Part shown: positions 8,922 through 37,860 of the stretch, one piece after another
Layout: each line of letters begins with the position of its first letter
Position numbering within the stretch: the first letter of the stretch is position 1
Source of the DNA: Granulosicoccus sp.
GTDB taxonomy: Bacteria > Pseudomonadota > Gammaproteobacteria > Granulosicoccales > Granulosicoccaceae
NCBI GenBank assembly: GCA_023301795.1
Contig: JALZVU010000219.1
Span: 1 to 37,860, forward strand
Reading direction: 5' to 3'
Length of the DNA: 37,860 nt
Position numbers and translations under genes: made by a program
Notes under the pieces: generated by a model
Database searches by the model: none
Seen by the model: only the letters and a program-made list of their open reading frames with translations
Told to the model about the DNA's origin: nothing

Positions 8922-11177
8922 TTATGTTCTATCTGACTTACCCAGTACCCTGCATGCCGAGCCGCCATTAACAGCTTGCCCCTGCAAAAATATCCTGATT
9001 ACTGCAGCCAGCATCAATAGCCCCGCCGCTATCCAATTCAAGACTCCAGCAGAGCTGGCAGCGCCCGTTGTGGGGGTGGTAGCCAACTCAACTGACACGG
9101 GTGCAGCGCTCTGCGAAGGCGCCGCAGCAGTCGGCAAGACCTGACCGGATCTCCCGCCCGCAAGAGACACCGTCGCCAGATTGTTAGCTTGTTGTAATTC
9201 CAGGATACCTATCGGGGAGACCTGGGCGGTGACCGGTGCATCGCTGTCCTGGTAATCGTCGCTCACCAGAAACTCGATAATGCGCCCCTCACCAGGTTCA
9301 ACGCCTCTAACGGTACAGCTTGCACTGGTGGGTGACTGCACCTGACAATCTGCTGGCCATTGAAGCTGCCCGGGGACGCTGGTCTCGACAATCAACTCTG
9401 CATCCAGCGTGAGTGCACTGTCTGGATTAACAATGCTGAAACCAACTGCGGTTCCGTTGGAGGCGGCATGTAGAGAGAGATCAACACTGTTCTTCAAACA
9501 GCTTTTGACGCGTGAACCTAGAACGCTTTGCTGACTGCATGTACTGAAATCAGTGTTGGTGCGTTCAGATATATTCGGCCACATGATCGCCTGATTGTTA
9601 TTGCTGCACTGCGTGTCCGAATCGTGCTGTGCACCGAATGAATGGCCTAGCTCGTGCGTCAGAAGCACATCACCAAAACTACTGGGTGTGGTCACGCCCA
9701 CATCATAGCCATCGACACGACAGGCGGTATCAATCCACGCTAGGCCTAAAGTGACATCCGTTTTAGGATTACCCGTAAACAGGTACGACAACGCGCTTTG
9801 CTCGAACGTTGTCTTGTATTCCAGACGGTAGTCGCGAAACGATCTTAAGATGGTTTCCAGCGGCACAGCACCCATTTGCAAAGGGTCTGATAGTTCATCA
9901 AATTGCAGCGCCTCATCCAAGGTCAGAGCAAGCCCGAACTGACGGTATATGCCATCAGCAATGTTCAGTTGATTCAGCGCATTGGCCAGCCCTGCCCCTG
10001 CATAGTAGCGATCGTACTGACTATCTACCACAATGGAAATAGGCACAGCACGTACATCCGTTGCAACACCGCGCGACCTGGCAGTCAACGCAGATCTGGG
10101 TTCAGGCGGTGCCACCAGAACATCCAGCCCTTGCACCCGATCAGCAAGATCGGAGTGCAGACCGCCATGCACGGCAGCCTTACGCGAACGCGGCTGATAA
10201 TAATCCAGGGTTCCCATCAGATTTGCTGGCGCAAGACGTTGCCGTCGGCCATTGATATTAATCACACCGGTTAGTGAGCCATCACGCAACACAGCCCTGA
10301 CCCAGCTATCTGCTACACCCTCTACAGTGCCATCAAACACACCGACGGAGGGTGGCAATTGCTCATTCAAGTCAGCATCAAGCCACTGCGTTGTCCGCGT
10401 TAACGGGCTAGGCTCTAGAAGCAACTGCATATCCACACCGTTCACGCTCACCGACAATCGAAGCAGACCGTCAGCGGTTTGCTGCTGCGAACCAACACGG
10501 CTTGCACTTGAAATCCGCTCCTCAACTATCGCAAGCCGTCTATCCGCGCGATCAAACCAATAACGTGACAGGACACTGCCTGCTGGCCACCGAAAGTTCA
10601 GCGGTAGACTCAATGCGGTATGCCGCTCTCGCAAATCAGTCAGAGACTGACGGGCACCTTCGGTATCGCCTAGTTGCTCCATTGCAATCGCATCGAGATA
10701 TTGAGCAGAATCGCTATACGCTGACTCAGGGAACCGTTGCTGCAAGACCACTAATGCCTTGCGTGCTGCGTCAAAATCAAATCGATCCATCACAAGCAGG
10801 TAAGCACTAATGTACAAAGCATCGTCCGTTAATGCACCCGCAGGATCTGCCAGCGCAATGACATCAAGCTCAGCCAGCGCCTCATCGATGCGTCCCTGAT
10901 CACGCAGCGTCAACGCGTAGAGAAATACCGGCAATGAAGCTCCAGCATCAGCCGACTCTTGAAGCACTGCGATCCGCGTCTGTGCCTGAGCCAGATTCTT
11001 GAACGATGGATATTTTTTCTGCAAGCGTCGCAGACTCGCCAAAGCCTGTGGGTATTGCTGCGCAGAGATGGATGCCAGCGCCTTTTCATAGAGCTGATCA
11101 GCATTGGCATGCGCTCCACCACTGCTCACTAGCAACATGGCCAGAAACATCGCTCGAACCAAGGTAGAAGAACTCAC
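8922..11177 (-). CDS. Secreted, membrane-anchored TPR metalloprotease of ADAM/reprolysin (M12B) type
   Basis: Predicted zinc endopeptidase facing the periplasm or outside. Order along the 751 residues: signal peptide (1-25, ending GGAHANA); TPR-like helices (about 26-185); a region resembling the ADAM propeptide (about 235-320, with FDGTVEGVADSWVRAVLRDG); a metzincin domain (about 376-565); a beta-rich segment with paired cysteines (about 565-675); a low-complexity Ala/Pro/Thr stretch; and a C-terminal membrane helix (about 711-731). The zinc site is HELGHSFGAQHD, with ligands H508, H512, H518 and catalytic E509. The Met-turn methionine is M532 in AIMWP. The following FSTCSQQ...KSCLKN resembles the reprolysin disulfide framework. 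It starts 3 nt after the HAMP gene, so the two are surely co-transcribed. The substrate is unknown. Confidence 0.85.
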   Translation of the reverse strand: MSSSTLVRAMFLAMLLVSSGGAHANADQLYEKALASISAQQYPQALASLRRLQKKYPSFKNLAQAQTRIAVLQESADAGASLPVFLYALTLRDQGRIDEALAELDVIALADPAGALTDDALYISAYLLVMDRFDFDAARKALVVLQQRFPESAYSDSAQYLDAIAMEQLGDTEGARQSLTDLRERHTALSLPLNFRWPAGSVLSRYWFDRADRRLAIVEERISSASRVGSQQQTADGLLRLSVSVNGVDMQLLLEPSPLTRTTQWLDADLNEQLPPSVGVFDGTVEGVADSWVRAVLRDGSLTGVININGRRQRLAPANLMGTLDYYQPRSRKAAVHGGLHSDLADRVQGLDVLVAPPEPRSALTARSRGVATDVRAVPISIVVDSQYDRYYAGAGLANALNQLNIADGIYRQFGLALTLDEALQFDELSDPLQMGAVPLETILRSFRDYRLEYKTTFEQSALSYLFTGNPKTDVTLGLAWIDTACRVDGYDVGVTTPSSFGDVLLTHELGHSFGAQHDSDTQCSNNNQAIMWPNISERTNTDFSTCSQQSVLGSRVKSCLKNSVDLSLHAASNGTAVGFSIVNPDSALTLDAELIVETSVPGQLQWPADCQVQSPTSASCTVRGVEPGEGRIIEFLVSDDYQDSDAPVTAQVSPIGILELQQANNLATVSLAGGRSGQVLPTAAAPSQSAAPVSVELATTPTTGAASSAGVLNWIAAGLLMLAAVIRIFLQGQAVNGGSACRVLGKSDRT

Positions 11178-11180
11178 TAC

Positions 11181-11822
11181 CTAGCTCCGTCCCCTAGAAT
11201 TCAGCGTGTGGGCCGCATCATTACCTGCGACCTTCTGGTCAAAATAGCTGAGCACGTCGGCACATTCGCTCATCGCCTTTAACACCGCCTTTTCATCAGG
11301 TACGGGCTGAGTCTCCAGCGAATCCACAATTCGTGTCAAATCGCGAGCTTCGCTGATCTTGGCGTGCACCCGCTCCATAGCGCGATTCAGCGCTTCGCAC
11401 AGTTCACCAAATTCACGCGAATCGTTTACGCGCAATCGCACTTCCAGATTGCCATCACCAATCTCATTCAGTGCTCTTTTGATAGCAAGCAGAGGATTGC
11501 CGAGCCGGCGCAGTATGTAGACAGCGATACCAGTGGTGATAACTGCATTGATGACAAGCATCACCAACAGCCATTGACCTAGAACGGCACCTAAGGATGG
11601 CACTGCCTCGCTCATGGCACCTATGTCTTCAGAGGCAAACAACAGGGGGGCGTTTCCCTGCACGAGGTTCCCGAGCAGTGTGTGGTAGAAAACCCCGAGA
11701 ACCAGCGTGGACTGCACGATGAAAAACAGGGTAAGCAGCAAAACCCGCCGGATCTGACGCACCTGAAAGACTTTGTCACGAATCAGCGACATCGGAAAAG
11801 CAGCGTCAGATGAACGTGCCAT
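11181..11822 (-). CDS. Two-helix membrane protein with HAMP domain and no output domain
   Basis: Not a named gene. The 213 residues show a basic N-terminus, a first membrane helix (about 26-46), a short extracytoplasmic loop of about 35 residues, a second helix (about 82-104), and a HAMP domain (about 105-157, with the conserved Pro110 and the REFGELCEALNRAMERV helix). A short helical tail follows with no kinase, methyl-accepting or cyclase domain. AAGGGG seven bases upstream supports the ATG at 11822; an in-frame ATG at codon 11 is the alternative. Immediately followed by the metalloprotease gene, it looks like a signal-sensing partner of that protease. This role is inference. Confidence 0.8.
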   Translation of the reverse strand: MARSSDAAFPMSLIRDKVFQVRQIRRVLLLTLFFIVQSTLVLGVFYHTLLGNLVQGNAPLLFASEDIGAMSEAVPSLGAVLGQWLLVMLVINAVITTGIAVYILRRLGNPLLAIKRALNEIGDGNLEVRLRVNDSREFGELCEALNRAMERVHAKISEARDLTRIVDSLETQPVPDEKAVLKAMSECADVLSYFDQKVAGNDAAHTLNSRGRS

Positions 11823-35192: not shown

Positions 35193-37860
35193 TTAAAACC
35201 GCTCCGGCCTATGCAAATAAAAGCCCTGAGCCTTATCAACACCCATGGCGCGGAGCTGCTCAAGTGTTGCCTCGTCTTCAATGCACTCTGCAACGATTTT
35301 AAGTTCCAGAGATTTGCCCAGCTCCCCCATGGAGCGCACTAGGGTTTCGCTTCGCCTTTCATGCATCATGGCCATGACAAAAGAACCATCGATTTTCAGT
35401 ATGTCGATAGGCAGCTCTTTCAGATAGGCAAACGAGCACAGGCCGGTGCCGAAATCATCCAGAGAAAACTGAATACCTTTTTCAGACAAAGCACTCATCA
35501 AACGCTTGGCTACTGACAGATGAGTTACGGTGGCGGTCTCTGTTACCTCAAAAATCAGTGTTTTCGGATCCACAGCGTAACGTGTCAACGCATCAAGGAT
35601 CCATGGCAAAAACGTGGGATCACCCAGCGTCTGCCCTGACAGATTAATAGCACACGATGTCAGACCACGCGCCGCCAAAGAGCTCTCTGACAATGCAGTT
35701 AGTGTGAGTCCGATGATATGTCTGTCCAGCTTGTTAGCGATACCCAACCGCTCCGCCGAGGGCAAAAACGTTGCTGGCATCAACAACTCACCATCAATAT
35801 CTCGAAGCCGTACAAGTATCTCCACATCCGGATGAAACTCATCTTTAAGAGAAACGACTTTCTGGGCAACAAGCTCAAACCGATTCTCAGCAATAGCCTT
35901 ACTGATGCGTACCCTGTCCAACTCCACGGCAGAGCCTGGATCCGTATCTACCTGGAAGGTGCTGACCTGATAACTACCTTCTGCTTTCGCCTGCAAACAG
36001 GCCGTACCAGCATCACGCAAAGCTGCTGTTGGTCCCAGCGTTTCAACATTCAGATCCAGAGCACCCACAGACACAGCCACCGTGAACCCTCTGTCAATCC
36101 AGCCAAACTGAAACGCTTCAACATCACTTCGTAGCTGCTCAAAGAAGCCCATCATCGATTGCACATCTTGCCCCTCAACAAGCACGGCGAACTCATCACC
36201 ACCCGTACGAGCAACAGTAACTGATGGCTGTGATTTGGAGCCATCGAGCAACAACATCGCTATCTGACGCAACAACTCATCACCACCGCTATATCCAATT
36301 TCTTCGTTGATCGAGGCGAAATCAACCAGATCAAAAAGTGCAAGTGCGCTAGGGAGTTGCGACTCGCTCGCCGTATCAATCGCCCGCGTGATTCTTGCTA
36401 TCAGCTCGCACCGGTTAGTGAGCTCAGTCAAGGCATCGTGTGAGGCGGCCCAAGCTAGCTCAGTTCGCAACTGCTGAGCAAGTGTGCGATCGTGTAGTGT
36501 CAACACCGCCCCTTGCGAGTTATCACACTCCACCAACATCGTGACCCCAAGACGAACCTGCAACTCCACGCCATACACCGGAGCCACGACGATCTCGACA
36601 CCATCGCGGCGACTCGATGCAAGTTCGGCATGTAATGATTCGCAAGTAAAACGTTGCCCACTACGTGCATCACGCGCCATCAATACACTCTCTATCGATT
36701 CATTGAGCACCTCACTTTGCTTATGCCCAGTGATTCGCTCTGCAGCTTTATTCAACAATACAACGTTACTGGCTTGGTCAATAACGATCACGCCATCTTC
36801 GATACTTTGCAGCGTAGCTGTTGCTCTCTGGCGCTCAGCATCAAGGGCGTTAAAACTGGCACCTAGCTTCATGCGCATATCATCAAACGCCTGGGCGAGA
36901 GTGCCCACCTCCCGCCCCACAGGTATCGGAACAGATTCGCCAAACTGACCGTCGGCTAATAAGCCAACACTGGCACACAACTTCTCTAATGGCCGTGAGA
37001 CAAGTATTGCAAAACCAGCAACGGCTAGTAACGCGCCCACGATAAGCAACAACGCCAAGGGCACCACACGGTTAACTTGTTCACCGACCGAACTCAGATA
37101 ATCTGCCTTGGGGACAAACACCCCCACTCGCCACGGAGGGGTGCTCATGCTGTCCAATGTGGCAACCGCCAAAAACCCCAGCTCCCCGCCCACACGCGTC
37201 ACACCGCTGACCACTCTATCCTGGGTTACCAGGGAGGGTGTTGCAGCCGCTGGCGCACCAGGTTCACCGAACCCGTAGGCCGCCAACCATTGCTCGCCAA
37301 CCTCCTTTTCAGCGGATGCTGACTCGACTTTATACTTATATCGTATGGCATTAATTTGTGCGACAGCCACTGGCGTGAAACGCAACGAATCAAGAGGGAT
37401 AGATGGCATCCTGCCCTGCTTCGGTGCTCCAGCTGCAGGACTCCAGGCAGCGATTAATTCGCCATCAGCATCCAGAATATGGTGGGCCACGCTGAAGGTT
37501 GGGCTGACAAACCATAAAACCGTCCATCGTTCAGACCGACATAGATGTTCGATACCGAACCAAGTTCGGTCGCCTGCTCAACATCTCTGATAAGACGTTG
37601 CACTGAGCGAGGATTGTTAACATCAACACGTGAGGAACGCAGAGCCAATGCCAACTGCCGGTTGGCGACTGAACCAATCGCCAGAAAATGCTCCAGCTCC
37701 TCCGTGACAGCGGCTTGTGATGACACCGCCGCTTGACGCACAACGTCATCTATCACCTTCTTACCACTTGTGGCCAGCAACCAGACCGTTATGGTCAGCG
37801 TCAGTAGGAGCAGTGATCCATAGATGACAAACAATAGCCGGCGCGCACTGATACTGCGGA
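35193..37860 (-). pseudogene. Membrane GGDEF-EAL protein with frameshift, 5' end beyond window edge
   Basis: Predicted cyclic-di-GMP turnover protein. Frame A, running from the right edge to its stop at 37454, codes a membrane helix (FVIYGSLLLLTLTITVWLLA) and the first half of a periplasmic sensor ending in YVGLNDGRFYGLSAQ. Frame B takes over near 37490 and continues to 35193: rest of the sensor, a second helix (about residues 142-164 of frame B), HAMP, PAS (about 222-335), GGDEF (motif intact at 430-434, no RxxD inhibitory site) and EAL. The EAL motif reads EIL; NLSG, FEVTET, LDDFGTG and KIDGSFV are kept. A single missing base between about 37457 and 37580 would join the frames. It could be a true mutation or a sequence error. 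Confidence 0.8.

Follow-up and report, generated by a model that had tools for sequence, protein, structure and literature searches.

The HAMP-protease gene pair

The DNA analyzed here (hereafter the window; 37,860 nucleotides) is one whole contig (G000:C219) of a Granulosicoccus sp. genome. On its minus strand, two adjacent genes encode a small membrane protein with a HAMP domain and an exported metalloprotease that combines tetratricopeptide repeats (TPR) with an M12B catalytic domain (Table 1). An earlier annotation made from the letters alone (hereafter the sequence-only reading) had described them as a two-gene unit. Both open reading frames (ORFs) are real and the gap between them is exactly 3 nt, with GGGACGGAG sitting immediately 5' of the GTG start of the protease gene. 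Among the relatives compared, HAMP genes of this type are nearly always coupled to a downstream TPR-bearing gene, and the effector domain attached to the TPR differs between loci.

A HAMP domain usually passes a signal on to the enzyme to which it is attached. In the window protein, HAMP (1.9e-10 at residues 103–153) is the sole domain above its Pfam cut-off, in agreement with the earlier description of a HAMP protein lacking an output domain. The 60 residues that follow the domain have no Pfam match, and no cytoplasmic output domain was found with NCBIfam, where kinase and chemoreceptor matches span only from about the second membrane helix (TM2) to somewhat past HAMP and are far below the cut-offs. 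A Foldseek search with the predicted model of this protein returned no match at E 0.001 or better, and its best rows are HAMP fusions. Two membrane helices, separated by a loop of about 33 residues, are predicted from hydropathy and the model, and the topology is presumably N-in. Among 72 HAMP sequences (the window copy and those from 71 of the 72 loci described below, L225 being open at a contig end), the mean top-residue frequency is 0.79 in the N-terminal tail, 0.70 in HAMP (residues 105–153), 0.66 in the loop, 0.59 in the helices, and 0.39 in the C-terminal tail. No variation is seen among the 72 sequences at four loop residues (G56, P59, F62, and P75) or at W84, with which TM2 begins, and the same holds for their equivalents in a 19-row alignment that includes three homologs from another class.

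The protease matches Reprolysin_5 (1.2e-14), Reprolysin (2.2e-13), and TPR_6 (1.2e-9), all above the Pfam cut-offs. The M12B, TPR, and HAMP assignments of the sequence-only reading were all recovered in this way by profile searches, and a Sec-type signal peptide was recognized by eye. The TPR part resembles YbgF/CpoB, BamD, and Slam-type TPRs, although in the window protein none of these matches reaches its NCBIfam cut-off. Alignments were based on 22 or 18 of 47 TPR-M12 proteins (a set that omitted ten duplicate loci) or on 29 sequences (the window copy and those of 28 loci). In all 22 aligned homologs, the HExxHxxGxxHD zinc site (H508, E509, H512, G515, H518, and D519), the Met-turn residue M532, and six cysteines (486, 524, 547, 560, 611, and 621) are invariant. 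Solved relatives identified by sequence include trimerelysin II (8.7e-10) and ADAM17 (about 1e-5), and the predicted fold matches metzincin structures.

The predicted model of the protease (pLDDT 82.7, pTM 0.78) places a beta domain (about residues 227–315) and a linker between the TPR and M12B domains. In the structure comparison, four ADAM17 entries lead (Z 24.7–26.0 over 288–313 residues) and are aligned from chain residue 32–36; in entry 8snl, model residues 215–660 correspond to chain residues 32–475 (Z 26.0). Snake-venom metalloproteinases that contain the catalytic domain only come next (Z about 22 over 184–187 residues; rmsd 2.1–2.4 for the best ones). Foldseek also puts ADAM17 and an ADAM17 prodomain-metalloproteinase entry on top. 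Because the ADAM17 alignment begins at chain residue 32–36, the region between the TPR and M12B domains of the model is read as an ADAM-type prodomain; Pfam has no prodomain match in the window protease. Residue D352 is, by analogy, a candidate 'aspartate switch'. The 16 Pfam families reported for the window protease include no disintegrin or cysteine-rich domain, and the model has an Ig-like beta domain there instead, with a low-confidence stretch preceding the C-terminal helix. For the 22 homologs, the Pfam listing covered 25 of 49 families, and DUF11 appears at E up to 1 in at least four of the 22 among the matches listed. Because no disintegrin or cysteine-rich match was found and an Ig-like domain follows the protease, the protein is classed as an M12B protease with an ADAM-like zymogen layout and not as a true ADAM. 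The ADAM17-like prodomain, the Ig-like domain, and the GlyGly-CTERM-like tails described below go beyond the sequence-only reading.

Table 1. Features of the HAMP-protease pair in the window, with the third type of HAMP partner from another class.
Feature	Position	Strand	Description and basis
HAMP membrane protein	11181..11822	-	213 aa, ATG start, lacks output domain; ORF list, Pfam HAMP, model pLDDT 71
Cytoplasmic N-terminal tail	11739..11822	-	Residues 1-28; best-conserved segment (72 sequences); sidedness presumed
TM1	11673..11738	-	Residues 29-50; hydropathy, model helix 17-57
Periplasmic loop	11574..11672	-	Residues 51-83, motif GxAPLLFxSED; conservation; topology presumed
TM2	11511..11573	-	Residues 84-104; hydropathy and model
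HAMP domain	11364..11516	-	Residues 103-153; P110 invariant, E137 at least 90%; Pfam, alignment
Intergenic gap	11178..11180	-	3 nt; ribosome-binding-like GGAG within the 3' end of the HAMP gene
TPR/prodomain/M12B/Ig-like/tail protease	8922..11177	-	751 aa, GTG start; ORF, Pfam, model
Signal peptide	11106..11177	-	Residues 1-24, Sec-type; cleavage between AHA and NA by eye
TPR domain	10506..11105	-	Residues 25-224; common to HAMP partners; Pfam and model
ADAM-type prodomain and linker	10068..10505	-	Residues 225-370; predicted model aligned to ADAM17 8snl
D352	10122..10124	-	Kept in 20/22 homologs
M12B catalytic domain	9486..10064	-	Residues 372-564; Pfam, structure comparison
Zinc site HELGHSFGAQHD	9621..9656	-	Residues 508-519
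Ig-like beta domain	9144..9485	-	Residues 565-678, invariant C611 and C621; model, alignment
C-terminal helix	8976..9038	-	Residues 714-734, degenerate GlyGly-CTERM-like tail; model
Third HAMP partner, other class	L243:5467-7998, L242:556-3204		TPR and large C-terminal domain

Conservation of the HAMP-TPR arrangement

A scan of the HAMP alignment against 84,980 species genomes yielded 72 loci, and the named relatives that share this HAMP gene are designated Granulosicoccus, Granulosicoccaceae, Chromatiales, or Gammaproteobacteria. In 67 of these loci, the gene directly downstream on the same strand bears a TPR domain, whereas the other five stop at contig edges (at two of these, an Ig gene begins before the edge, in one case broken in frame). 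Because the downstream gene encodes a TPR-M12 protease in 28 loci and an Ig-TPR protein in 39, two paralogous pairs are recognized, namely pair A (HAMP and TPR-M12, as in the window) and pair B (HAMP and Ig-TPR), and the window genome also has pair B (G000:C195). The gap between the HAMP and Ig-TPR genes ranges from -194 to 109 nt (median 10, counted from the first possible start). The Ig part of pair B matches ASH- and HYDIN-type Ig models only below cut-offs. A simple lipobox pattern is present in 30 of 43 Ig-TPR proteins, and this partner is probably a lipoprotein. Moreover, none of the 43 has a C-terminal helix, and no catalytic domain was found in the three proteins tested. In the trees, HAMP-A of family f1 (support 0.97) and HAMP-B (no support value shown) form two distinct groups, and the f52 sequences belong to neither. 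B-type TPRs and TPR-sulfatases nest inside the A-type TPRs (support 0.96). These trees are weakly rooted, a long branch being their only outgroup.

The adjacency of pair A is conserved in 28 genomes from two genera of the family and, in addition, in two other families. The TPR-M12 protease is present in 45 of the 48 family genomes (by our count), with an adjacent HAMP gene in 28; the locus in G020 is split by contig ends. In 16 of the 45 (one g3, fourteen g4, and one g5), no HAMP gene is adjacent, although only 366 nt of upstream sequence are available in G046. In each of these 16 genomes, a HAMP gene is paired with an Ig gene at another location, the Ig gene of G028 running off the contig. 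The TPR-protease was not found in G001, G031, and G034, and G031 has no HAMP match better than 9e-4. The coupling is one-way: a HAMP gene nearly always has a TPR neighbor, whereas the protease need not have a HAMP neighbor. The HAMP-protease pairing proposed by the sequence-only reading is a real unit that is conserved in part of the relatives, but the constant partner of the HAMP protein is the TPR domain and not the protease. A constant third gene beside pair B was also considered and rejected, as the commonest neighbor family occurs in 17 of 39 loci.

This arrangement is not confined to the family. Across an evenly drawn set of 369 genomes of the class, HAMP matches of at least 240 bits occur only in families f1 and f52, together with a weak match (39 bits) in G107 of f61. 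All four f52 genomes have the TPR-M12 protease. The HAMP gene is directly upstream of it in G098, G236, and G340, and also in G791 if this genome corresponds to locus L222, as the contig number and position suggest. The surroundings vary among the f52 genomes, and they differ between the f1, f52, and pair B loci. The two genes also stand together in G107, where the HAMP protein has diverged strongly (20% identity to that of the window). In a draw of 398 genomes of the phylum, HAMP homologs were found in four genomes of another class. In three of these (G481, G501, and G593; about 140 bits for HAMP), the next gene encodes the same TPR subfamily joined to a large C-terminal domain. Their TPRs score 166.8–172.9 bits with a model built from the A and B TPRs, compared with 32.0 and 27.2 for two CpoB-type controls. 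When a joint model was applied to 78 genomes of this other class, the same three scored about 250 bits, G453 scored 108, and all others scored 50 or less. As HAMP homologs pair also with Ig-TPR proteins and with a TPR fused to another domain, these patterns suggest that HAMP and TPR form the constant unit and that the effector is exchangeable.

For the third effector domain (L243 and L242), Pfam and NCBIfam name nothing, and a sequence search of the PDB with a 577-aa stretch returned one row (E 0.37). An assignment as a glycosidase was rejected, as it relied on likeness by eye with no library match. Similarly, the short HAMP proteins of G225, G254, and G090 (40–52 bits, with no TPR gene in the stretch seen) were not accepted as members of the same family, and the TPR matches in G055, G105, and G225 were set aside as CpoB/YbgF-like, with pal-like genes (judged by eye) next to them. 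The HAMP homolog of G453 (L241:1483-2049; 188 aa) lies downstream of a gene that by eye resembles a response regulator with HD-GYP. Separately, proteins encoded at four loci (L063:717-2825, L064:5425-7515, L065:4456-6582, and L066:4120-6249) combine the TPR subfamily of the HAMP partners with a sulfatase and have a lipobox-like start. The Pfam Sulfatase match is 9.8e-51 in L063 and 6e-56 in L066, whereas L064 and L065 were assigned by likeness. No HAMP gene is present within the stretches fetched for these loci.

Co-variation of the HAMP protein with its partner domains

Distance correlations were calculated from 26 genomes having both pairs with 1000 genome subsamples, and those involving neighboring genes from 20 or 25 loci. 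HAMP-A distances correlate with TPR-A at 0.89, with the prodomain at 0.82, with M12 at 0.79, with the Ig-like domain at 0.76, and with the TPR-B of the other pair at 0.64. The excess of TPR-A over every other region is found in all 1000 subsamples. Given TPR-A, the partial correlation with HAMP-A is 0.05 for M12, 0.09 for the prodomain, -0.16 for Ig, 0.30 for TPR-B, and 0.42 for the Ig part of the other pair. Furthermore, the partial correlation between HAMP and TPR given aroF is 0.52–0.71. However, the values drop steadily in gene order away from the HAMP gene, so that linkage could explain part of them. The neighboring genes aroF and hisG (0.80–0.82) and algW (0.75) also correlate strongly with HAMP, and algW keeps 0.50 given TPR. 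Because of these aroF/hisG and algW values, the contribution of shared descent is judged to be strong and that of domain preference modest. For pair B, the excess of TPR-B over the TPR of the other pair is insecure (0 or below in a share of 0.113 of the subsamples), and so is its excess over its own Ig part. Overall, these comparisons of sequence distances give modest support to the notion that the HAMP protein works with the TPR domain.

C-terminal tail and export of the protease

The C-terminal membrane helix noted in the sequence-only reading is present, but in many relatives it looks like a rhombosortase-type sorting tail and not a plain anchor. Among 44 TPR-proteases assessed (three truncated sequences were dropped), 41 have a C-terminal hydrophobic stretch and 25 have a GlyGly-CTERM-like tripartite tail according to a simple rule (GG motif, helix, and basic end). 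The window copy fails this rule. The curated GlyGly-CTERM model TIGR03501 matches only two of 22 homologs and not the window protein; according to its authors, this model cannot detect all true cases (PMC3237569). The MYXO-CTERM model likewise matches two of the 22 homologs.

The window genome has a rhombosortase (TIGR03902, 150.8 bits versus a cut-off of 84) and GspD (608 bits versus a cut-off of 351). Of the 48 family genomes (G000–G047), 47 have a rhombosortase that scores above the cut-off, as do none of 14 control genomes, two of which have GspD above the cut-off. The exception is G022, which is 94% complete and whose TPR-protease has a GG-type tail. With such tails in 25 of 44 relatives, and with both rhombosortase and GspD encoded by the genome, many relatives probably deliver the protease to the cell surface; the tail of the window copy is degenerate. 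In another genome (G091:C1:1002069-1004009), an M12 relative whose match lies outside the TPR part adjoins a rhombosortase gene, which is the arrangement described for dedicated pairs (PMC3237569).

A possible transmembrane control unit and its alternatives

The reading that we favor, with a probability of roughly 0.4, is that the two genes encode a transmembrane control unit in which the HAMP protein docks the TPR domain and thereby controls a latent ADAM-like protease. The exported protease would be made as an ADAM-type zymogen and held by its C-terminal helix at the periplasmic face of the inner membrane. The HAMP protein, presumably a dimer with two membrane helices, N-in orientation, and a short conserved periplasmic loop, would bind the TPR domain and relay a cytoplasmic state through its HAMP domain. 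The relayed state would determine the time or place at which the protease is released or unlocked to act on its putative substrates. For pair A, inside-out control is favored, given that the HAMP protein is partnered by a zymogen whose catalytic site is intact.

Several known systems provide parts of this picture. LapD is an inner-membrane HAMP protein that controls the periplasmic protease LapG in the inside-out direction and so demonstrates that action of a HAMP protein on a protease in the periplasm is feasible (PMC5231407). The window protein shares the HAMP domain with LapD; however, the degenerate GGDEF-EAL module of LapD was not found in it, its loop has only about 33 residues, and its partner differs from LapG in being an M12B zymogen with a TPR domain. 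For the protease, the closest solved structures, prodomain included, are those of ADAM17, a latent sheddase that is governed by its membrane partners iRhom1/iRhom2 (PMC12184519). In comparison, iRhom is an inactive rhomboid and not a HAMP protein, and the window protease adds a TPR domain and a bacterial tail and has no Pfam disintegrin match. VesB and other clients with GlyGly-CTERM tails are exported proteases with a propeptide, a tripartite tail, rhombosortase processing, and type II secretion (PMC6219818). VesB is a serine protease, whereas the TPR domain and the HAMP partner are features of the window pair, in which the tail is degenerate. The parts of the pair belong to known families, and the pair is grouped with systems of a HAMP protein and an exported partner. 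A description of this pairing with exchangeable effectors was not found among the papers listed from the open-licence literature, as judged by titles and the starts of abstracts.

A number of the results weigh against this control unit. As described above, 16 of the 45 protease genomes have no adjacent HAMP gene, the HAMP homolog of G453 (108 bits) has no TPR neighbor, and the co-variation falls with gene distance, is approached by that of aroF and hisG, persists for algW, and is insecure for pair B. With regard to the tail, the failure of the window copy under the simple rule, the few TIGR03501 matches, and the lack of a rhombosortase above the cut-off in G022 also count on this side. Moreover, the model of the HAMP protein alone is mediocre (pLDDT 71, pTM 0.43), and the HAMP-B partner, lacking a known catalytic domain, fits signaling from the outside inwards at least as well.

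In such an outside-in scheme, exported TPR co-receptors would report the state of the envelope or cell surface to the HAMP protein, whose conserved cytoplasmic N-terminal tail and C-terminal tail would transmit it to a kinase or cyclase encoded elsewhere in the genome. The likely lipoprotein nature of the Ig-TPR partner (lipobox in 30 of 43, and no catalytic domain in the three tested) is consistent with this scheme, as is the N-terminal tail being the best-conserved segment of the HAMP protein. Precedents also exist. The outer-membrane lipoprotein QseG serves the inner-membrane HAMP protein QseE (PMC12691602), a combination like pair B, although QseE is a full histidine kinase and no domain follows HAMP in the window protein. 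In GlnH-GlnX-PknG, a membrane relay with no output domain of its own connects an exported lipoprotein to a cytoplasmic partner; GlnX has four membrane helices and, according to the paper, no HAMP domain, and its partner is a binding protein (PMC9769921). However, no constant neighbor family accompanies pair B (17 of 39 at most), the neighbors of pair A differ between f1 and f52, and the scheme leaves the intact zymogen protease of pair A unexplained. We consider it unlikely.

Alternatively, the HAMP protein may be tied to the export or localization of its partners. The GlyGly-CTERM-like tails, the rhombosortase and GspD of the genome, and the one-to-one gene order in 67 of 72 loci agree with this explanation. 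However, because the Ig-TPR proteins have no C-terminal helix (0 of 43), the two partners would need different export routes, and g3, g4, and g5 retain the protease with no adjacent HAMP gene. We consider this explanation improbable.

A further alternative is quality control of the outer membrane, in which the TPR domain would dock on an Omp85-type machine, the protease would trim failed outer-membrane proteins, and the HAMP protein would report the load. BepA, a TPR metallopeptidase of the envelope, acts at the BAM complex (PMC8423444), and the TPR domain of the window protease resembles those of YbgF/CpoB, BamD, and Slam-type proteins, albeit below NCBIfam cut-offs. In addition, among 12 loci checked (from 10 of the 14 g4 genomes, one g5, and one g3), the protease gene is divergent from one gene family in all 11 g4/g5 loci (e.g., L052:7942-9531 and L057:8622-10277). 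The L052 member scores as Omp85 above the cut-off, and the POTRA scores in L052 and L057 are slightly below theirs. However, this Omp85-like gene is absent from the g3 locus examined and has no match at 1e-8 in the window genome, with matches in 14 of the 51 genomes searched. The GlyGly-CTERM-like tail points to the cell surface, and M12B is not M48, the family of BepA, which also carries its TPR at the C-terminus; no HAMP partner is mentioned in the accessible part of the BepA paper (PMC8423444). We regard this alternative as quite improbable. Finally, operon inertia, with the two genes being neighbors by descent with no joint function, would account for most of the distance correlation as shared descent (aroF/hisG at 0.80–0.82, algW at 0.50 given TPR) but is highly improbable, given that a HAMP gene followed by a TPR gene is seen again in the duplicated pairs, in further families, and in a second class, despite exchanged effectors and differing gene surroundings.

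More broadly, HAMP and TPR may form a general Gram-negative transmembrane control module with plug-in exported effectors (the ADAM17-like zymogen protease, the Ig-type probable lipoprotein, and the large domain of the other class). In the window, this module would be a bacterial counterpart of iRhom-ADAM17, an inside-out switch of a surface sheddase. In this wide form, the idea is somewhat unlikely. If the HAMP protein and the TPR domain touch, a cytoplasmic state could be passed to an exported enzyme, or information could travel in the opposite direction, the outputs being interchangeable, and transmembrane HAMP signaling would become testable in a system with no kinase. Moreover, a bacterial protease with the zymogen layout of an ADAM bears on the origin of the prodomain-protease arrangement in ADAM sheddases.

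Genes surrounding the pair

The gene order on the minus strand is MurA, HisG, DAHP synthase, HAMP, and protease, followed by a convergent AlgW/DegS-like gene. The names MurA and HisG are presumed from the sequence. The sequence-only reading had placed its proposed envelope proteolysis system next to algW. A functional link to algW was rejected, as this gene is convergent with the protease gene and is seen as a neighbor only in g1–g3, not in g4 or in the f52 and f61 loci. Its partial correlation of 0.50 with HAMP given TPR counts against the rejection and is read as shared descent. Close to the contig end, the window also encodes a HAMP-PAS-GGDEF-EAL protein (35193–37490), which indicates that c-di-GMP turnover is probably present in this genome.

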